From Onthophagus taurus (taxonomy: Eukaryota; Arthropoda; Insecta; Coleoptera; Scarabaeidae): a stretch of DNA of 64,000 bases. The first letter of the stretch is position 1. Every line of letters begins with the position of its first letter. Positions 35,395-57,846 of the stretch are shown here, piece by piece. The stretch covers positions 11,909,001-11,973,000 of the forward strand of contig NC_091972.1 of the NCBI RefSeq assembly GCF_036711975.1. Direction: 5' to 3'. Under the pieces are notes generated by a model. That model was not told the origin of the DNA. It saw only the letters and a list, made by a program, of their open reading frames with translations, and did no database searches. The translations under genes were made by a program, and so were the position numbers.

Positions 35395-36999
35395 TTAACC
35401 CGTTTTTGCCCGAGTTTTCTTATTTCAAATACAAAGGTTCTTTTACATAATTTTGATAATTTTTATGCATAAGATGTCTAATTATATGCAAAAAAAATGT
35501 TTATACATAATTTTCCTTAATTTTTGATGTTCCAATTTTGGAGCATCAAAAATTGGATGAAAAGTTGGGTTGGGTTGGGTTGTATCCATACCCTAAAGTT
35601 TGAAGATAATTCACCACTTTCAAAGATGAAAAATATCTATCAGAGTAAATTTTAAAGGACACGTGTTTTGGAAGTTTTGACATCAATGAGACAACAGTAG
35701 AACCGCCAACACCCAGTTGTTCAATCTGAGGTCTGCTCTCTTCTTTTCCCTGATATGGTTCAAATTGAATCAGCTATCCTAATGGATCACACAAGCTCCA
35801 TATCCTGTACCCATATCTAATCGGTTTACCTTTGATGAACTGTTTGGCTCCATGTCGACCAAAATAAGGAACCATGTTTTCGTCAATGCTCAGTTTTTCA
35901 TTTAGGACTGCATGTGCTAAGTAACGTTTGTTAAGCATGTCAAAAAGAGGACGCAATTTTGCAAATTTATCAGCATTAGCTAGATTAGTGTTATAGGCAC
36001 AGTGTGCATACTTCTTTATAACGTCAAACCTGTTTCTTCTCATTGCATTTGCGACCATTGGATTTTATGTATCACTATCAGTCTCCCACAGCATACGCCA
36101 TCGAGAAACTTGAAGATGTCCTGACAAGAACAAAATGGCAACGAAGCATTTAATTTCGCCAGTATCAATCTCAATACTATGGGTCACCATGTTGCTAAGC
36201 ATAAAGTACAAACATATCGTTCAAGAAAGTGCATATTTCTTCATCAAAAAAACTTTCAAAACAAGAAACAGCAACGGTAAAGTTGTATGTACGACATTGG
36301 CTTGGTGAAACAAATGGCGGCAAGGTTGGAGTCAAATTATATTTCACAAAATTTCTTTTAGGCGAATGATTATAATTTGTGTTGACTAAACGAGAAAGAG
36401 GTAAATCGTCTTCGTCACTAGAATTTTCTGTGTCTTCGATGTAAGCGATTTTATCGAATTGTCTAAATTTTGCAGTCGCAGGCGCTTGTAACTGTCGTCC
36501 ACTCAAGTGATTTATATCTGAAGGAAGTTCTACTCTTCCTCAGAGTTTCTTCTATCATTAGGTGGACTAATATAAATGTCTGCTTTCCAAAACTCATCAC
36601 TTTCCACCAAATCAATAAGCTCTTTGGTAGAATAGTACCTAGAAAAAGTGTGTACCCCAGTATTCCGAAATTGGAACATGCGAAAATAACGGTAAATTAC
36701 CATAATAAAGGCATGCAAATTTGGCAAGATCTTTTATAGCAAACATTCAACAGACAATATAGTATCAACAATTTGAAATTATTTACAGTAAATTACAAAA
36801 AAAAACTTCTTTGCAGCAATTTTTGCACTATAAACACCAGCACAGTAACTCTGTGAGATTTGCAAACGAGTGAATTCTAACAATGTAGTACACTTTCCAA
36901 TAACATATGAGACTATGACGGACAAGATGAGACCTGCAGAATGAAAAAAAACGCGAAAATACGGAAGTGGTGGGGAAAAAATGGGCAAAAACGGGTTAA
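35395..36999 (-). mobile_element. piggyBac-type element A, ends intact, transposase broken
   Basis: TTAA duplications at 35395-35398 and 36996-36999 bound exact 13-bp inverted repeats CCCGTTTTTGCCC/GGGCAAAAACGGG (35399-35411, 36983-36995). The element is 1597 bp without the TTAAs. On the minus strand an acidic N-terminal part (ADIYISPPNDRRNSEEE, 36727-36530), a part at 36506-36195 and a catalytic-region part (LSIDENMVPYFGRHGAKQFIKGKP, 36058-35774) are in different frames. The C-terminal third is missing. Confidence 0.85.
35774..36727 (-). pseudogene. truncated piggyBac transposase
   Basis: Three open pieces on the minus strand correspond to the acidic N-terminus, the middle, and the region with the second catalytic Asp (SIDENMVPYFGR; the family has a D-E-x-M-x-P-F pattern). 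Stops and frameshifts separate them and the part with the third catalytic Asp is absent, so no active enzyme is encoded. Confidence 0.75.
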
Positions 37000-38196: not shown

Positions 38197-39039
38197 ATGG
38201 TATCTAAATTTTTAGTAATCAACATGCACTCGATTCAATTTCGACATGGATTATCAAGATGTTTGGGACGTTACTTTACAAGTTCATTAGCAAAACCAAT
38301 GACAAGTACAAACCTTGATCCAGTCCAAGAAGAATCTTTGAAAGAAAATTGTTTGCTGGTGGATAGAAATGATAAGGTTGTTGGGGTTGCCTCAAAAAAG
38401 GAATGTCATTTAGTTAAAAAAGATGGATCTTTACCACTACACAGAGCTTTCAGTGTGTTTCTTTTTGATCAAAAAGGAGATTTATTATTACAAAAGCGAG
38501 CTTCGACGAAAGTAAGTAAACAAAAACATATTATAATTTTATTACTTTGGAGGAAATTAATGGTAAATGATTTATAGATAACATATCCGAATTGTTTCAC
38601 AAACACGTGTTGTAGTCACCCAATACACGATGTTTACGGTGAACAAGACGAAGAAAATGCTATAGGTGTAATACGTGCCGCTCAAAGACGATTAAATTAC
38701 GAATTAGGAATCAGTCGAAATCAAATTCCTGTTGATAAATTCAAATATTTGACTAGGATTATTTATAAAGATGTGGGTGATGGGGTTTGGGGCGAACATG
38801 AACTTGATTACATTTTATTTATACAAACGCAAGTCGATTTAAATCCTAATTTAAATGAGGTGTCTGAACTTCATTATGTTTCAAAAGAAAACTTACCCGC
38901 ACTTTTACCAACATTAAGTGGCCCTTTAACACCTTGGTTCGAATTAATTTTAAAGTACAAGTTATTTTTGTGGTGGAATAATTTAAACAATTTGGATGCA
39001 TTTAAAGATCATGTTAATATAACAATATTAGAAAAGTGA
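38197..39039 (+). CDS. IDI: isopentenyl-diphosphate delta-isomerase (isoform with first terminal exon)
   Basis: Exon 1 (38197-38511) and exon 2a (38578-39039) join in phase 0 to 258 residues. The enzyme interconverts IPP and DMAPP in the mevalonate pathway, supplying terpenoid precursors such as juvenile hormone. Visible hallmarks match type I Nudix-fold IDI: NTCCSHP with the catalytic Cys at 117, WGEHE with the metal-binding and catalytic Glu at 178 and 180, and the terminal WWNNL. The first 30 or so residues are basic and Ser/Thr-rich, possibly a mitochondrial or peroxisomal leader; an inner Met at 38224 could also be used. An AATAAA lies at 39145. A second terminal exon that fits the same donor lies 3.2 kb downstream. 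Confidence 0.93.
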
Positions 39040-39048
39040 GAAATAACC

Positions 39049-39140
39049 AAAAATGTACATTTTAAAGTAAATTATTTTATTAATTCTTATTATTTTTGAT
39101 GTTTTCTAATTTTTTTTTTTGTTTAATTCAGGTTATAATC
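39049..39140 (+). repeat. about 85-bp sequence duplicated on both sides of the LINE cluster (left copy)
   Basis: The sequence just after the IDI exon 2a stop (taaccaaaaatgtacattttaaagt ... gttttctaattttt) aligns with the sequence just before the acceptor of exon 2b (42165-42241). The left copy ends in a poly-T tract plus ttcag, like a relic splice acceptor. Confidence 0.6.
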
Positions 39141-40129
39141 GTGCAATAAAAAAATTTGGTATATTTTATTATTTTATTTTTATTACCTAAATTCCTATTT
39201 GTTTTCTCTAACAAAATAAACAGTTTAGTGGTAGTGGTAGCTCTAGTTTTAATTGTTAATCAGCCTTAGATTGTATGTAGCACTGAATAATCAAAAAAAA
39301 ATCATCACCAAGGTCACTACAATGCCAGGGGCCGACATCGTTTTGCGTCTTGCCAAACCAAACCAAAATTGCTGAAAGATGAAGAAACAAGATTAATGTA
39401 TGAAGATCACAATAATAAAGAACTAGATAATACCAGTATAAATGACACCAACAAGCATTGGCTAGATCATAGACAAGGTTTTAAAAGGGATGACAAAAGA
39501 TATTCTGGAACTAATGGAGAAACGAAGGCAATGTACAGACGTCTTCAAAGAAGAATAGGAAATGAGATTAGAGTGGCAAAAGAGAATTGGCTGCATAAAA
39601 GATGTCGGGAGGCTAAAGATCTTAGCAGACTTGGAGACAATTTTCATTTATATAAAAAAGTCAAAGAAATAGCTGTGCTGTATAATAATAGATCGCCAAT
39701 TTTTCATTAAAAATGATCATAACGAAATAGTGTCAGAAACTGAAGAACTGTTGCAAATATGGAGAAAATATACAATTAGCCTCTTCAATGACGACAGATC
39801 AGAGAACCCTCCAACAGAGGGGTCCACTCTGCCAGGACCAAGTATATTAAGAAGTAAAGTCATACACACCATTAAGTCGATGAAGGAGATATTTCACTTA
39901 ATTAACGAACAAAATCTTGAAACATTATTCAAAAACATCTATGACTGGACACTTCCTTGAGGACTGGCTCCACTCTACGTTTGTCGCACTACCAAAATCG
40001 AATAATGCAACTTCGTGTAAGTACCGTCTCTGCGTCTCATTAGTATAATGAGCCACTTTCTAAAACTTTTCCTTGCAATTCTACATACAATGCTTTATCA
40101 AAAATGTGAGGAAGCAAGTGAAGCTAGTC

Positions 40130-40968
40130 AGTTTGGTTTCTCATTCCAAATCCGAATCAAAATCCATCAAGGCTGGAATTTCTCAAGGCAGCATCCTCTC
40201 ACCACTACTATTTAATATATGTTTACATGACATTCCAATTAATAAAAATGACCGAAAAGAAAAAAATGATAATCTAGAAAAATCCATTCAAGATCTATAA
40301 AACTCGATTAATGAGGTTCATAAATCGTTATTGACTTGGTGCTTTCAGTTAAATCCAAGTAAATGTGAGGCTAAAATATTTATCCTTAGACAAGTTAAAA
40401 TAAAATTAATCGAAGATCACCCTTTAAACTGTAATCCGAAAGATAGCGCTATCAAATATCTGGGAATATATTTGGACAAAAGACTTACATGGAAGTATCA
40501 TATTAATAAAAAATTAAACGAAACATATGCAAGAAAACTTTATCCCATCATCAACAGAAAATCGAAACTAAAGATCAAATGTGCAATGCTACTACACAAA
40601 TCATTAATAAGACCTGTAAGATCTATGCATGCCCAGTTTGGAGCTCAACAGCTAAATCTAGTATTAAAAAAATTCAAGTGCTACAAAATAAAATTCTAAG
40701 AATATCTGTAGATGCTCCATGGTTCGTGAGAAACTCGCAAAAGACCTCCAAAAGTGTCTAAGCGCACAAGAACATCTGTTGAGAGATAAAATAGAAGACA
40801 TATTTATAGATAGGGAATAGATTCAAGATGACATTGTTAGTTCTTCTGCTATTATTGTATAATTAATTTCAATTGTTATCAAATGGCTACTTTGATAACA
40901 ATTGAAATTGTATGTAGTAACATTTAATGTTGAACTGGTTGATGCTATTAATAAATAAAAAAAAAGAG
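40130..40968 (+). mobile_element. 5'-truncated jockey-type LINE nested in the RTE element
   Basis: The frame gives KAGISQGSILSPLLFNICLHDIP, then LNPSKCEAKIF, IKYLGIYLDKRLTWKYHI and KCAMLLHKSLIRPV, the order of a jockey-clade reverse transcriptase and thumb. The YADD segment between the first two is deleted. The 3' region has a 19-bp perfect hairpin (40865-40909) and ends in a short A-rich tail (aataaataaaaaaaaa, about 40953-40968), after which RTE sequence resumes. Confidence 0.65.
40865..40909. repeat. perfect 19-bp hairpin in LINE 3' region
   Basis: AATTTCAATTGTTATCAAA and its exact reverse complement flank a 7-bp loop (tggctac). It sits about 45 bp before the A-rich tail of the jockey-type fragment. 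Confidence 0.85.
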
Positions 40969-41989
40969 ATTTAAGACTGGATCCAAAGGATATAAGACTA
41001 ATTGGTAATCTATGTTAGCACCAAAAGGAGAAAGTCCGAGTAAATAACCCTGGAACAACTGAGGATTTTGAAATCAAAAAGGGCATTCGCCAAGGGTGTA
41101 TCCTGTCCCCGATGCTGTTCAACCTATGCGTAGAAAAAGCATTCTCCGAGTCAATCTCGAATAGTCCCTTTGGAATTAAAGCAAATGGAACGTCCATTAA
41201 CAATATCCGGTATGCGGATGACACCGTGATATTAGCGGATGGTACACAAGATTTGCAAAACTCGACACACTCGAATACATGTTGATGGAGAGATCATCGA
41301 ACATGTTAAACAATTTAGATACTTGGGATGCATGATTAATGAGAGATGGAATCCGGATTAAGAGATAATAATAATAAACTTTATTGTGCACCATAAGATT
41401 CTACATATTAAAGAAAAAAATAACTTGAATTAAAAACAAAAGGTAGGTTCCAAACTTTAGTCTGTTCTAACCAATCTATAATCAAATAATATGCATGATT
41501 GAACAAGCTAGAACAACCTTTCTAATTGTAAGACTTCGATAATTTCTTACGGAGAAGAACCTGAATTTCAACCTCAGATATAGGATGGTAAAGTGCTAGG
41601 TCTGGTCCGTTCTCCTATGGACACTGAAAATATCAATCATCAACAAAATCGAAGCCTTTGAAATGTGGATCCTGCGGCAAATGTCTTCTGAGTAACGAAG
41701 ACGTTCTCCGAAGGGCCGAGAACTTTTTGAAAATATCAAGAAAAGAAAGATACGTTATCTCGGACATATACTACGGGGAGTACGGTACCATTTCCAATGC
41801 CTCATTCTCCATGGCAGAATTTAGGGAGGAAAAGGAGGAGGAGGTAAAGAAAAATTATCGTGGCTAAGAAATATCCGTCAGTGGACTTCCAAACATTACA
41901 GAATGCTGCACATAAAGAACCGTTTGAAGAGGAATTTGCATGGCACTTTAAGAAGAAGAAGCACTGAACAACAACTTAAACAAGAATAA

Positions 41990-42120
41990 AGGCTAACAAG
42001 AACACACTAGAACTAGAAACATTCGGGCTTAGCCATCTTAAGAGACGTATGGCTAAACCCGAATAATTCTAGTTCTAGGTTTAGTGTTAGCTCTAGTTAT
42101 AGTTGTTATTCAGCGTTATA
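41990..42120. repeat. TAGAACTAG-family palindromic copy
   Basis: One unit, aacacactagaactagaaac to ctagttctaggtttagtgtt, with a central tcttaagaga palindrome and inverted arms. A half-unit of the same family is also seen at about 39220-39290. Together they flank the LINE cluster between the IDI exons. Confidence 0.75.
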
Positions 42121-42241
42121 TTATAGTACATTTTTATGAATTAAAAATAAAAGTAACACTAGAATTAACCAAAAAAGTGTATTTTAAAGTATTTAACTCT
42201 TATTAGCGTTGAAGTTTTCTAATTTTTGTATATATTTTTAG

Positions 42242-42703
42242 ATAATGTATCCAGATCATTACACAGCTTCATGTACTGGACATCCAATAGCAGAACATCC
42301 TGAGGAAAAGAACGAAAATAACGGAATAGGAGTTAAATTAGCCGCTATAAGACGTTTAAAAGCCGAATTGGGATTTACGACCATCGAACCCTCTGAGATA
42401 ACTTACTTAACGCGTTTATATTATCATTGTTCCGTCGATGGAAAATGGGGTGAACATCACATCACCTACGTTTTGTTACTTAAAAAGGATTTGAATTTAA
42501 AACCAAATCCAGGGGAGATAAGCGAGTTTAGTTTGATTCCAAAAGGCGAATTAAATCAGTTTTTGCCCACTTTAAACGCACCCCTAACACCGTTTTTCAA
42601 TCAAATTGCGAAACATCGATTGCTTTTGTGGTGGAATAATTTGGATGATTTAAAATCGATTACTAATCAGGAGGCAATTTCAACCGTAGAAGGATGCAGT
42701 TAA
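42242..42703 (+). CDS. second IDI terminal exon (exon 2b), catalytic residues replaced
   Basis: Follows a good acceptor (tatatttttag) and opens in phase 0, the same phase as exon 2a, with 153 codons uninterrupted to a TAA and an AATAAA near 42733. It aligns end to end with exon 2a: IMYPDHYTASCTGHP for ITYPNCFTNTCCSHP, WGEHHITYV for WGEHELDYI, and LLLWWNNLDDL at the end. The catalytic Cys (117) is Thr, and the catalytic Glu (180) is His; the first Glu (178) and the His-Pro are kept. No copy of exon 1 is found between 39040 and 42241, so it is either an alternative last exon spliced from the donor at 38512 or a gene that lost its first exon. The intact frame argues that it is expressed and selected. 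Confidence 0.75.
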   Translation: MMYPDHYTASCTGHPIAEHPEEKNENNGIGVKLAAIRRLKAELGFTTIEPSEITYLTRLYYHCSVDGKWGEHHITYVLLLKKDLNLKPNPGEISEFSLIPKGELNQFLPTLNAPLTPFFNQIAKHRLLLWWNNLDDLKSITNQEAISTVEGCS

Positions 42704-43413
42704 ATTAATTTTTTTTTGTAATAAAATTTGAAAATAAAGTTAATATTTCAATCATTGTGTGTTTTATCTTTGTATATAGATATACATACATTGTTATTCA
42801 ACCGAAAATAGTTAGTGGTCGTCATGCCTAGATGAGTGATACATAATATAAAATAACCCAAAACTCTTGCGAATGAATTGTGTTCTTGCTATTATAACTA
42901 GAAGTAACATCTAAAGTGCTAGCAAAACTATTTCCAATTTTGCTAACAACTCTATTGAATGTGATTAAGTCATAAAATGACAGAGACGAAATCAAATACA
43001 CAGAAATATGTTGGGACATATCCAACGTGTTGAATATTTATCAAGCAACTTTACATGTATATACAAGTTTGTCCAATGCTGGACATAAGCCTCCAAAAGC
43101 TAAAAATATCTAATACACAAAAATGAATTATAAAATGTTAAATTACTGTCAAAATGGCGACTTCGAAAAACGTTAATTATCAAAAACTAAAATTGATTTT
43201 TTTACTAAATCTATCTTAATAAAATAATGAAACAACATGTAAAAACCATCTAAGTATATTGTATATCAATAAATAAAAAAGTTTTATTTTAACAAATTTA
43301 ATCGAAAATATCCCGTATTTTAATTCAAACTTGTCAATCGAAACGTTAACCTAACCTATTTTTGTCAAAAACATAACCTAAAAAAAATTATTTTCTGATA
43401 AATCAAAAACAAG
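42704..43413. other. intergenic, 3' end of IDI exon 2b and upstream of mRpL37
   Basis: AT-rich. An AATAAA near 42733 ends the IDI exon 2b transcript. The minus-strand frame at 42828-43025 has no domain. The mRpL37 promoter must lie in the last few hundred bases, but no motif is clear. Confidence 0.4.
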
Positions 43414-44799
43414 ATGAAATTAACTCAAATTTTGTATCGTCAGCACCTTGGGAGGCATATTAAAAGGCATTGGAGAATTCAAGGTGTGAAAAAACCGCAT
43501 GATTTGGGTACAAGGGCTGTTCTAGAAGCGCAAGGTATAAATGTTGTAGAACCGGAAGATATTTTAAAAGAAAAACGGCAATATGAAAAGTAATGTTTTC
43601 ACCCAAGTTTTCTTTCTTTACATATATATTTTTATTATAGGATTGAAGTAATTGGATTTATACCAAAACCATTACCTTTGGATGAGACACATCCGAATTG
43701 GCACGAAAGAATTTGTTACACCTACAACAATAATAATGTTCTTTTGGAGGGTTTAAATCAAGCTAAAATCTTAACAAATACTGTTGAGGTTAAATCGGGT
43801 TTACCAGATAATTTGGTTTTAAAAGATGTTGAAAGAAATTTTAATAGTAAAATGAGAGAGATTATTAGATATTCTCATATTTTTGATGCAGAACAACAAA
43901 AATTGCCTAAAGTTAAAGATCCTTTAAGACCAGCTTTTAATTTTCCAAGAGTTTATGGAATAACTGAACAAAGAGTTAAAAAATTATTAATTTCGAAGAT
44001 TTTAAATTTAATTGAAGTCAATTCTGATTATGAAATAACAAGAACTAGATCGATATTTAATGATTTAACATTTTCATATCCTTTTGTTAAGAAGGATAAA
44101 TTAATTCAATTTGAACTTAAAGCAGATACTTTATTGACTAGTTCAAAACCTTTAAAACCAATTTATGAAGGAGATTTAAATAATTTAAAGTTACCTGATA
44201 TTTATCCTTCAAATGAAGTTATTTCTTTGAATAAAGAGCATATTTATGAGATCAAAAATGTGTATCGTAAGAAATTTTTGGTTTTAAATAGTGGTTTAGT
44301 ATTAATAATAATTTTTAGCACTTGATGTTACAAAAATATCAAATTCTCACCCTCACACTTTATTTATTCATTATGATACAACAGAAGTTTCGAATTTATT
44401 TGAAGAACAAGTTTTGGAGACTCAAATTTTTGGGAGAAATTTATTAAAAGCTTTTACAATTGGAGCTTCTTATGGTAAAAGACTTTATGGGGTGTGTAAA
44501 TATTTTTAATTGATAGAAAAGTTAGAATTGAAATTAATTCATTGATTTAGGAAAAAATTAAGGATTTATCCAAACCTATTGTACTTCAATGTATCCAAAC
44601 GAATGGTAAATGGTTTAATTTTGGGATTTTACAAATAAATACGTTGGATTTGTTAAGTGATAAAGTAAGAAATGTTTGGTTTCAAAGTGAGAATATTGAG
44701 TTATTTAATAATTGTGGATATGTGGATGGAAAACCGACTTTGGAAGGGTATAATAGTGAGGTAATTAAACATATTTTGGGGTTCTACAATAATATGTAA
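43414..44799 (+). CDS. mRpL37: large ribosomal subunit protein mL37, mitochondrial
   Basis: Exons 43414-43589, 43641-44266, 44319-44491 and 44551-44799 join in one frame to 407 residues, the usual length for insect mL37. The N-terminus (MKLTQILYRQHLGRHIKRHW) is basic with Arg/Lys/His, fitting a mitochondrial leader. The body has the family pattern (HPNWHE, LRPAFNFPRVYG, PHTLFIHYD). mL37 is a structural protein of the mitochondrial large subunit, paired with mL65 in mitoribosomes. The identification comes from overall resemblance to arthropod mL37 rather than a single motif. A polyadenylation signal (AATAAA) is near 44827. Confidence 0.82.
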
Positions 44800-45806: not shown

Positions 45807-50027
<4,221 letters not shown>

Positions 50028-52150: not shown

Positions 52151-53475
52151 ATGTGTCAAAAAAGTAGTGAAAATCATCAAAAATTTCAGTTAAATAAAGA
52201 AGCAAAAAAATTTCTGGATGTTTTGATTTGTGAAGGTGGAAAAAGCCGGTGCGATGAAACTTCGGAAGTTTTTCGAAGTGGAATGAAGATTCCTGAATTT
52301 TATGATAAAGAAAAATTTAAAAGGTAAAAAGGAAATTGCCGTAATAGTTAGAATAATTAAAAAGAAATTAAAGACAAATGGATTTGGGACAAGGTTTAAA
52401 CGTTCATTTTATTTTAAAAAAACTCACAATTTACTCAATCTACTCTTGCAAAGATAAAGTGAATTTAATTATCCCAATTTCAACATTTAATAAATGTATA
52501 TTGCCAAACATTATTATTATTATTGTTTTTTTAGAGGACAACAATTTTTTCACCGAAACATATTCGCGATGCTTTTCGGAAAATTTCTCGGCTTAATCTC
52601 AGATCTCACTTTAATATCATCTCAAAAAATTTTGGAACACACCAATCAATCTAATGAACCAAAAACAGCTTTTAAACGTTACGTTTCAACCATTTTTAGT
52701 ATGTACACTTGGTATACATACGATTTAATACCTGGTTCAAAGTAAGTTTAAAATTAAACGTAAATTTATTGTTAACTTTATTTTTCAAAGATCTTGGGAA
52801 TCATTAAAACGTATAAGAACAATTCACAATTTCGCTAGTTTAAAATGTCATAAAAATCAAATTGGGGAAATCGCTCAATATCACATGGCTTTAGCACAAT
52901 TTGGTTTCATGGGATTAATCGTATCGAAAAGTGAGAAAATTGGGATTTTTCCAAATCAAGAAGAAATGGATGGTTTTATACATTTTTGGAGGGTTATTGG
53001 TCATATGCTTGGGATCGAAGAAAAATACAACATTTGTCGTGAAACGTTTAAAGAGACGAAAGAAATTTGCGATGAGATAATCGCAGAAATTATTTCACCA
53101 GCTCTAAATGAATGGGACGAAAGCTTTTTGAAGATGACCCGAGCTTTAATTGAAGGAATGTGGTCGATGATGCCGGTTTTACAGTTTAAAGTATTTTTAA
53201 ATTTGCTTTATCTGTTAATTAATAATAACAATCAAGATAAAGATGTTGAGATTTTACAAATGAACTATTTTGAGAAATGTTTATTAAAATTTCTTCAAAC
53301 ATTTATTTTTTTGTTAAAATTTGAATTACTCAGAAAGTTTATGAGGAACTTTATGTATGTAATTTTATTTTTAACACATAAATTTCCATTTTTAGCTTAT
53401 TATAAGTATGGATTAAATTATAAACATAGCAAATTTGTGGAAAGTTCTAATTTTAATTATACAAATTTTAATTAA
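52151..53475 (+). CDS. mpaB/Lcp-type (DUF2236) oxygenase-domain protein, copy A
   Basis: Exons 52151-52323, 52535-52741 and 52791-53475 join in one frame to 354 residues (phases 2 and 2). The pattern matches the ER-bound oxygenase mpaB/rubber oxygenase catalytic domain: an N-terminal FFHRNIFAMLFGKFLGL helix, KRYVSTIFSMYTW, ALAQFGFMGLIVS, and the hallmark FIHFWRVIGHMLGI. The bacterial Lcp members are heme-dependent oxygenases, and fungal MpaB cleaves a terpenoid side chain in the ER. Insect members have no known function that I can state. The C-terminal region has hydrophobic segments (residues about 290-340) that could anchor it in a membrane. The substrate is unknown. A paralogue follows in tandem. 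Confidence 0.78.
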
Positions 53476-54932: not shown

Positions 54933-57846
54933 ATAAATGCCACGCAAGTGAATTCGTCGATAATCTTTTAAATAAAGGAGGAACAATACGCTGTGATGAA
55001 ACCAATGAGGAATTTAACAGATTTGAAATATTACCGGAATATTTCGACGAAGAAAAATTTAAATGGTAAATACTTTTACTTTTCAACTTTCTCTTTTAGT
55101 ATCCGACCTCATTGGAATAATCTTCAACGAAACATTTTTCAGTGGGCAAAATTTTTTTTATAAACATCTCTATGCAATGTTTTTCGCAAAAATTCTTGGG
55201 TTAACAACAATTCTTTCAGTACCCGATTTAGCGCAAATTTTAAAATTTACTAAAATGTCTAGTGAACCACTTTCCGCTTATAAACGATATTTATCAACCG
55301 TTTTTCATATGGTAGCTTGGTACGATCATGATTTTCAACCAAATTCAAAGTAAATATATAAAATTTTGTATGCAATAAATTTTAACCATCATTTTAACCA
55401 TTAATCTGAAAATTACTTCGATGATATCTTGTGATATCATATTATTAAGTTTAGAAAAGAAATGAGTTAAAAGTGTACTAACTTAGATGAAGCTGGAAAG
55501 TTAGGCAGTTATTTATGGGTCCTAGTTTCGACTAATTTTTAAAAATTTATCATATTTTGTCATTTCCCAACCAAGACGAGTCGAACTTTTGTTATCTCGA
55601 AGCAGAAAATGCCCCAATGTGTGTATTTTGTTAACTAACTTTGGTAATTTTACCCTCAATCTCATAGTCTTCATTCAAAAGTTGGGCTCTAGAAAGGAGT
55701 AAGGATTTTTGACGATCTTCAATTAAAATACTTCATTATAACAAGTGATCTTTAAGGCAGTATAAATCATAGAGGAAAAGGTGGCATGTCTTCAATGATA
55801 TCAGCCAACTGCCTAGTATGTTTCTTGTTGCGGAGAATTTACTGATTCCTTATTTACTGATACCTTATCCGAATTTAGGCATAAACCTGACCCGGGTTTG
55901 GGTATCAATCCATCCAGGATTTAGGCAGTAAACTGAATCGAGCAGTTTACCGCAGCATTAACTTAATCCGGGTTTAGGCATCAATCTGACTAATCTGGAT
56001 GATAACCTTATTTTATTTTTTCTGCATTCTTTTGCACGTAGTTGATCATCTTTAATGTTTTTTGTTTTAATTAATTCTGCTTTGTAATTGTGGAACAATC
56101 ACATCTGTTTATTCTTTCATGGTAATGAGTTCGTTGTTCATCATTACTAAACAGTTTTCTGATTTATCGTGGCTTAAGTCTCAGGACAATCAATAAAACA
56201 AGTTATGAGTGTACAATTAGACCTGATAGGCTGACTAAATAGGCGTTTTCATCAAAATTGGCAACCACTTCCATGGAATATCCAAGAATCTCACAACACA
56301 AGCTAAAACATAATAGCTCTATTTAAATAATCAGATCCGATCAGAACTACAAGATACAGAAGTTAAATCTAGTTTTGATAACTAAAAATTCTTAACCCAG
56401 AAACAGCTTCATCGCGTAAGAAATCCTTAAAATTAAGTCTAACTCATACTTGTCTAAAATCAATGACCTTAACATTTGCATTAATTGTTTCCTTTATGTA
56501 GGCTGCTAATACTGCTTAGTTAGTAATTATTCGGCGTGTTTTGGTCTCTAATAAACGTATCTTTATTAGGAAAAATTGGCCATACCAAGAAATCGAATTT
56601 GGAGAGGCACTTTCGAACTAAATATTAAGTACTTAATTACTGGATGCAACCATCCAATCATGTTAATATTACAAGTCTTGTGATTATTCAAGAGACGACG
56701 TGTACACAAAAATTTATTGTATAAATGCATCCAGAGAGGTATTAAAGATTTGAAAACAATTTACCATTGTCAGTTAGTAAAGCAAAAATAGAACACTTAC
56801 AATTTATTCTTTAAATAACCACACTATCTATACACTATGTTCGGTGAATGTTCATAATCAGAAATACTAAACAAAAGTGAATAAAACCATTGAACGACAC
56901 AATTTCTACAGTGAACCTAACTCTTATTAAGTTATTTGATATCAACAATTGTTTCAAATACGATATTCACTTTTTCCGTTAAATGTGCACATTTCCCTAA
57001 TTGAAATCAAAATTACAATTATGGTTTAATTGACTATGTACGAATTGTCAGTTAGAATTGTCTTATACCCCTTCGTGTTCTTAATTGATGGTTAAAATTT
57101 GTTGTGATACAAAAACTTCTTAATTGAAACAAATCATTAATGAATTTTTATTATTTAGAGTTTGGAAATCAATAGAAAAAGTCCGCTTTAAACACAATTC
57201 AGCAAGTAAAAGATGTTGTTCGGCAGGTTTTTCAAGTATCTCTCAAAAAAACATGGCTTTAACCCAATTCGGTTTTATGGGATTTGTTATTTCTGAAACG
57301 GAAACTGTTGGAATTTACAACGCGTCTAAACAAGAATTGGAAGGTTTTATTCATATTTGGAGAATAGTAGGATATTTAATGGGAATGGAAGATCGTTTTA
57401 ATATCTGTAGGGATTCTTTGGAAGAAACCAAAGGAATTTGCCACGAATTAATTCGAAGGGTTTTTCGCGAAGAAGTCCGCCGACAACACCAGGATTATTT
57501 AAGTTTAACTTCGGCTTTAATAAATGGAATGTGGTGTATGATGCCAGTTATGAATCATCACGTTTTTTTGTATTTTATAAACGAAATTGTTTGTAAAGAT
57601 AGATATTTACCAGAAAATGGTAATAATAACGAAATTAATAATGATTTTAAACCCTACGTTTTAAATGCGTTTCAAAAATTTTATTTATTTTGTTTAACAA
57701 CTTTTTTTTCTTTGATGAGGTTTACTTTATTTAGAATAATTCACGTTTATAACATGTATGTTGTATTTTGGTTAATGCATAACTTCCCATTTTTAGCTTA
57801 TTATAAATATGGAAAGAAAAATTCTCACGTTGAGATATTTGATTAA
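54933..57846 (+). CDS. mpaB/Lcp-type (DUF2236) oxygenase-domain protein, copy B (5' end incomplete)
   Basis: Exons 54933-55065, 55143-55349 and 57159-57846 join in one frame with the same intron phases as copy A, and the middle exon has the same length (207 nt). Matching blocks are RCDETNEEF, FAKILGL, KRYLSTVFHMVAW, MALTQFGFMGFVIS, FIHIWRIVGYLMGM and the C-terminal FPFLAYYKYG. The first exon listed has no ATG in frame and follows a tctag acceptor, so a short upstream exon is missing from this model. The third intron is 1.8 kb in copy B but only 49 bp in copy A. Tandem position, shared structure and moderate divergence show an older local duplication. Reaction and substrate are unknown. Confidence 0.74.
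55350..57158. other. large intron of copy B
   Basis: 1.8 kb of AT-rich sequence with a short run of 'gggtttaggcatcaa'-like repeats near 55870-56000. No coding frame or transposon is recognised. Confidence 0.45.

Follow-up and report, generated by a model that had tools for sequence, protein, structure and literature searches.

The window analysed here is a stretch of 64,000 nucleotides from the beetle Onthophagus taurus (assembly GCF_036711975.1, contig NC_091972.1, positions 11,909,001 to 11,973,000 of the forward strand). It carries a gene for type I isopentenyl diphosphate (IPP) isomerase (IDI), which is usually regarded as a housekeeping enzyme. On the evidence of the sequence, we consider it probable that this is one IDI gene with two homologous, mutually exclusive last exons, 2a and 2b, which encode a normal isomerase (isoform a) and a diphosphate-binding pseudo-isomerase (isoform b), respectively. 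Exon 1 spliced to exon 2a would give an ordinary type I IPP isomerase. Spliced to exon 2b, it would give a protein of the same fold that keeps the metal and diphosphate side of the pocket, most of its alkene-side chemistry being lost. Isoform b would then bind a divalent metal and diphosphates like IPP or dimethylallyl diphosphate (DMAPP), would not carry out the normal isomerisation, and would act through the binding of a ligand or of a partner. Whether splicing alone sets the ratio of the mevalonate-pathway isomerase to a conserved, non-isomerising counterpart sharing exon 1, be it diphosphate-binding or re-tooled, we judge to be evenly balanced. If true, one gene of core isoprenoid synthesis may yield a working enzyme plus a look-alike with a different job, and the locus would be a natural experiment separating the IDI residues needed for binding from those needed for chemistry. 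It would further point to control by splicing at the IPP/DMAPP branch point, from which juvenile hormone and terpenoid synthesis are supplied.

The three exons (Table 1) are all open frames, and both joins to exon 1 are in phase 0. Exons 2a and 2b are equal in length, each with 153 codons followed by a stop codon (39037-39039 in 2a and 42701-42703 in 2b). The exon 1 donor reads AAA/GTAAGT at 38512, and the same acceptor sequence, TAG/ATA, precedes 38578 in 2a and 42242 in 2b. AATAAA polyadenylation signals were located past 2a at 39145 and 39215 and past 2b at 42720 and 42733. The pyrimidine fraction of the 18 bases before the acceptor is higher for 2b (0.67) than for 2a (0.44), and the share of AG dinucleotides in the window with an equal or better pyrimidine content is 10% for the 2b acceptor and 64% for the 2a acceptor. 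The acceptor tract of 2b also contains CTAAT, presumably a branch-point-like sequence. The earlier note, made from the sequence alone, had described exon 2b as uninterrupted, in the same phase as 2a and equipped with its own acceptor and polyadenylation signal, and the coordinates, frames and signals all agree with this description. The layout is that of alternative homologous last exons: the two exons are homologous and in a common phase, each has its own stop codon and polyadenylation signal, and one in-phase upstream coding exon was found. These features suggest that the exon 1 donor is common to 2a and 2b.

Table 1. Features of the Onthophagus taurus IDI locus, in window positions.
Feature	Position	Strand	Remarks
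Exon 1 of the IDI gene	38197..38511	+	105 codons, from ATG to donor
Intron between exon 1 and exon 2a, 66 bases	38512..38577	+	GTAAGT...TTATAG
Exon 2a, canonical IDI last exon	38578..39039	+	CCSHP, WGEHELDY, TPWF; stop codon TGA
Copy A, 75 bases, beginning directly 3' of the 2a stop codon	39040..39114	+	Duplicated ahead of exon 2b
Transposon-rich insertion, about 3 kb	39115..42161	+	Limits inferred from the A/A' match
Copy A', ending 14 bases short of exon 2b	42162..42227	+	Match to copy A
T-rich acceptor tract of exon 2b, with TTTTTAG	42213..42241	+	CTAAT, branch-point-like
Exon 2b, putative alternative last exon	42242..42703	+	153 codons and stop codon; Thr/His/Phe at Cys87/Glu149/Trp197

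The source assembly (290.8 Mb, 33 contigs) was searched for further copies of the exons. Exon 2b matched in two places, itself and exon 2a (44% identity). The two exons share 43-46% of their amino acids and are alignable far beyond chance; this level of protein identity rules out an allelic or assembly duplication. A second exon 1 was not found in the genome, where the sole other match, interrupted by a stop, had an E-value of 1.16 and 21% identity. Nor was one found in the window with a profile of the N-terminal half, a profile that includes exon 1 itself: exon 1 matched with an E-value of 1.5e-24 and the next match had an E-value of 0.97. As exon 1 alone was matched in this search, the statement of the earlier note that no second exon 1 lies in the 3.2 kb between 2a and 2b was borne out. 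A search of IMG/VR for relatives yielded 122 stretches that fit the pattern, none of which was confirmed.

The active-site residues were assigned by alignment with human IDI1 and IDI2. The numbering follows human IDI1 and was anchored at Cys87, with which Tyr137, Glu149 and Trp197 then agree. Exon 2b has Thr at the position of Cys87, His at that of Glu149 and Phe at that of Trp197. The first two changes had been recognised in the earlier note, as replacements of the catalytic Cys and the catalytic Glu, and are seen in this alignment; the third was missing from it. Cys87, Tyr137, Glu149 and Trp197 are quoted as indispensable in human IDI (PMC11415240), so that three of the four are altered in 2b and Tyr137 is the one kept. 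For comparison, a prokaryotic IDI set of 70 loci (30 + 30 + 10 best-scoring) was reduced to 68 distinct rows by dropping two identical ones, and these rows were used for the residue statistics, the tree and the fold alignment. Among them the Cys87 position is Cys in 67 of 68, the Glu149 position is Glu in all 68, and the Trp197 position is Trp in 67, the remaining row having a gap. Thirty-four columns agree between 2a and human IDI1 and show conservation of 90% or more across the archaeal-type rows. Exon 2b alters 11 of them, six of which are the Cys, Glu or Trp or their near neighbours; among the neighbours, Ala replaces Asn and Gly replaces Ser around the Cys, and Thr replaces Asp near the Glu.

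The retained residues are found elsewhere in the pocket. Exon 2b keeps Tyr137, His89, Glu147, Glu116 and Arg111/112, and His89, Glu116 and Glu147 are each found in all 68 prokaryotic rows. Exon 1 provides Lys37/38, His41, His52, Arg71 and Lys75 to both isoforms. The metal ligands of IDI we take to be His41, His52, His89 and Glu147, with Glu149 as the fifth; exon 1 joined to 2b carries the first four and a His in place of the fifth. Our assignment of pocket residues to metal or diphosphate contact follows known IDI structures, and with this assignment the loss in 2b appears to concern chiefly the double-bond side of the pocket, the metal and diphosphate side seemingly being retained.

Both exons belong to the IDI family. 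Their best match in the PDB is human IDI1 (E-values of 2.6e-48 for 2a and 1.3e-32 for 2b). The TIGR02150 model, with a cut-off of 105.8 bits, is passed by exon 1 joined to 2a (175) and to 2b (134), while exon 2b alone, at 58.6 bits, falls below it. The NF002995 model (cut-off 127) is missed by both (114 for exon 1 with 2a and 93.8 for exon 1 with 2b). AlphaFold2 models had a predicted local distance difference test (pLDDT) score of 84.1 for 2b and 81.0 for 2a; the alignments used for folding had 40 rows, namely 38 of the 68 locus rows and both exons. The 2b model resembled human IDI1 (2i6k) with a template modelling (TM) score of 0.85 and an E-value of 4.3e-11, and human IDI2 (2pny) with a TM score of 0.83.

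If isoform b is made, there is about an even chance that its role is in binding or regulation. New chemistry on an isoprenoid diphosphate is possible, though we would suggest it only tentatively, and a weak residual isomerase activity like that of IDI2 is rather unlikely. As an explanation of the whole locus, a re-tooled enzyme, which would bind isoprenoid diphosphates and perform another reaction on them, e.g., phosphate removal in a terpenoid side pathway, is in our view doubtful. It would account for the retention of the putative diphosphate- and metal-side residues together with the change of three of the four indispensable ones, and the polyprenyl-synthase run on the same contig may mean that isoprenoid metabolism is expanded in this genome, yet this run lies ~20 Mb away. 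Plant Nudix proteins are reported to hydrolyse prenyl diphosphates (PMC7194074). However, exon 2b does not contain the Nudix hydrolase box, which is defined as GX5EX7REUXEEXGU (PMC5389931). At that place it has RRLKAELGF, that is, the RRLxAExG loop of the IDI type and not the REUxEExGU of the hydrolases.

A weak or specialised isomerase activity of isoform b is improbable, but a precedent exists. Human IDI2, which is without two of the four residues (Cys87 and Tyr137), is credited with the conversion of IPP to DMAPP and is tied to breath isoprene, which is DMAPP-derived (PMC10542801), and it is a counter-example as far as the Cys and the Tyr are concerned. On the other hand, 2b is without three of the four; one of these, Glu149, is kept by IDI2 and in 68 of 68 prokaryotic rows. 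Of the earlier claim that the changes should abolish isomerisation, the loss of key catalytic residues stands, while the abolition itself is plausible and, given IDI2, uncertain.

The spacer between the two exons bears on the history of their arrangement. Copies A and A' are identical at 57 of 66 aligned bases, with one 8-base and one 1-base gap, and a looser alignment of the two extends to four bases before exon 2b. Their local score is 63; the highest score reached was 48 among 3000 shuffles and 41 among 500. In the genome each copy matches only the other; on the outside, A adjoins the 2a stop codon and exon 2b follows 14 bases past A'. The insertion between them holds a reverse-transcriptase fragment (RVT_1, frame 41019-41282), a short, partly palindromic repeat at 42007-42163 that is dispersed genome-wide and clustered in places, and a segment at 39217-39279 that matches other dispersed repeat copies in the genome. 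Unlike these two segments, A/A' was found in only two copies, and it was ruled out as a dispersed repeat. Its origin in the exon duplication itself was also ruled out, since only nine of its 66 aligned bases differ against near-saturated synonymous sites between 2a and 2b; the lack of a match between intron 1 and A' contradicts this origin as well.

The simplest history suggested by this pattern is that an insertion between 2a and 2b duplicated the spacer, and that the gap between the exons, now 3.2 kb, was earlier ~80 bases. Such a gap would have left little room for a promoter and first exon of 2b's own, and the compact ancestral layout strengthens the idea of a common first exon with alternative last exons. 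The same observations bear on the proposal that exon 2b forms part of another gene, one driven by its own promoter and beginning with a first exon that is non-coding or non-homologous and that may derive from the transposon insertion. The 3.2 kb with transposon pieces that now lies between the exons is in line with such an origin, and the second codon of exon 2b is an in-frame ATG, so that a transcript of its own could conceivably be translated. However, a product without exon 1 would be devoid of the His41 and His52 positions and of the N-terminal part of the domain, the 2b acceptor has the same phase as that of 2a, and the A/A' repeat implies the ~80-base spacing before the insertion. We regard a separate gene as slightly more improbable still than a weak isomerase.

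The maintenance of 2b as a coding exon is supported by the comparison of the two exons. Over 151 of 153 aligned codons, the proportions of differing synonymous (pS) and nonsynonymous (pN) sites are 0.69 and 0.37, respectively. The ratio of nonsynonymous to synonymous rates (dN/dS), the measure that the earlier note had proposed for 2a against 2b, was 0.51/1.85 (NG86), 0.46/1.17 (LWL85) and 0.53/3.45 (maximum likelihood), i.e., 0.15-0.39, which is not what a decaying exon looks like. Neutral evolution of 2b was simulated under an AT-rich model with 60 runs each, in which base composition, kappa and equal branch times were assumed. At t = 0.8-1.0 (pS 0.65-0.69), neutral 2b reached a pN of 0.46-0.53 and at least 10 stop hits in each of the 60 runs. 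At t = 1.0, both pS and pN are reproduced when the 2b branch is given an omega of ~0.35-0.5. Because dN/dS is low and simulated neutral decay is ridden with stops, we conclude that selection keeps 2b a protein. By the A/A' clock, at 0.075 per lineage, the probability that a neutral 2b acquired no stop since the A/A' event is 0.08, and the probability that it acquired neither a stop nor a frameshift is 0.001-0.02, depending on the assumed indel rate.

The constraint on 2b looks real but weaker than that on 2a. The protein branch length is 1.03 for 2b and 0.64 for 2a (1.6x). In the tree (40 of 72 rows used), 2a and 2b group with support of 97/89, apart from the human IDI1/IDI2 pair; the bootstrap had not settled and 2b was flagged as a long branch. 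With catalytic residues lost and the predicted fold and the coding constraint apparently kept, the putative isoform b fits the pattern of a pseudoenzyme. An unexpressed relic in decay, to which the weaker constraint and the lost catalytic residues would point, is very unlikely in view of the 153 intact codons, the dN/dS of 0.15-0.39, the at least 10 stop hits expected from neutral decay over the 2a-2b divergence (t = 0.8-1.0) and the low probability (~0.001-0.02) of intactness since the A/A' event alone.

Besides the in-frame ATG of exon 2b and the example of human IDI2, several observations weigh against the interpretation of 2b as a conserved last exon for a non-isomerising protein. The dN/dS values spread from 0.15 to 0.39 by method, with dS near saturation. 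At t = 0.6 neutral 2b reached a pN of 0.39-0.40, near the observed 0.37, although its pS was then 0.59-0.60 (observed 0.69) and there were still at least eight stop hits. The fitted omega model is rough, as it yields 34-36% protein identity against the observed 43%. In 32 archaeal-type rows, 39 columns show conservation of 90% or more; 2b keeps only 20 of these and 2a 29, a sign of weaker constraint, the counts for human IDI1 and IDI2 being 30 and 24. Whether the changes in 2b spare conserved columns was examined by a permutation test, which did not reach significance (P = 0.09). Under loose scoring, the A/A' match was reached by 7 of 1000 shuffles. The prokaryotic rows are top matches to the family model or query and are therefore biased to canonical residues. 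Finally, the fold model of 2b spans only the part encoded by exon 2b, without the exon 1 half, and part of its resemblance to IDI comes from the family sequences used to build it.

Duplicated IDIs have precedents. Human IDI2 is a gene separate from IDI1, and the human IDI1/IDI2 and the 2a/2b duplications look independent in the tree. Like 2b, IDI2 (PDB 2PNY) is a duplicated IDI with another residue (Ser) for the catalytic Cys and with the fold kept; unlike in 2b, Tyr137 is changed to His, whereas Glu149 and Trp197 are kept. Enzymes of the insect mevalonate pathway are described as seemingly single-copy (PMC4897325). The pea aphid, however, offers two IDI paralogues in an insect, as two IPPI genes, IPPI1 and IPPI2, are reported, one of which is raised in oviparous females and one undetected (PMC5946545). 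These are separate gene records, and the excerpt of that report describes neither a common first exon nor active-site residues.

Alternative exons that alter a functional site are likewise on record. In Drosophila, Serpin 42Da combines one body with alternative exons that alter its functional site, but the site is the reactive-centre loop of an inhibitor and the isoforms are called typical inhibitory serpins (PMC4006314). In the IDI gene, by contrast, more than half of the enzyme domain, including the catalytic residues, would be swapped. Also reported are nine events of mutually exclusive exons altering catalytic residues, e.g., in the fly gene CG42249 (PMC7954323). These too are homologous exons that exchange catalytic residues, although the excerpt names no IDI, and the swap considered here concerns last exons. 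Among the titles and abstract openings listed from the open-licence literature, no IDI gene with duplicated last exons was found, and this speaks only weakly for absence. The exchange of functional or catalytic sites between homologous exons is already known, and what may be new here is an IDI gene with a duplicated last exon.

Some further features of the contig and the window were recorded. Telomere-type repeats were uninformative: five units of TCAGG gave 0 matches and five of TTAGG gave three overlapping ones at a single place, against 11 for the reversed control. On the IDI contig (C7), ~20 Mb from the gene, 9 of 17 polyprenyl-synthase (PF00348) matches lie within ~51 kb (C7:32343141-32394665). 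This run is a tandem-expanded prenyl synthase family, some of its matches having stops inside, and it could be terpene-synthase-like. Within the window, the next coding frames downstream of exon 2b are at 43402-44325 (+), ~0.7 kb away. To our eye these frames resemble mitochondrial ribosomal protein L37; in Pfam, no match was found for the frame 43594-44322. Putative fragments of piggyBac-type transposases, judged by resemblance, are at 35774-36064 (-) and 48255-49003 (+). Two open reading frames, 52729-53475 and 57124-57846 (+), resemble each other and match the mpaB/rubber-oxygenase catalytic domain weakly, below the Pfam cut-off in both cases.

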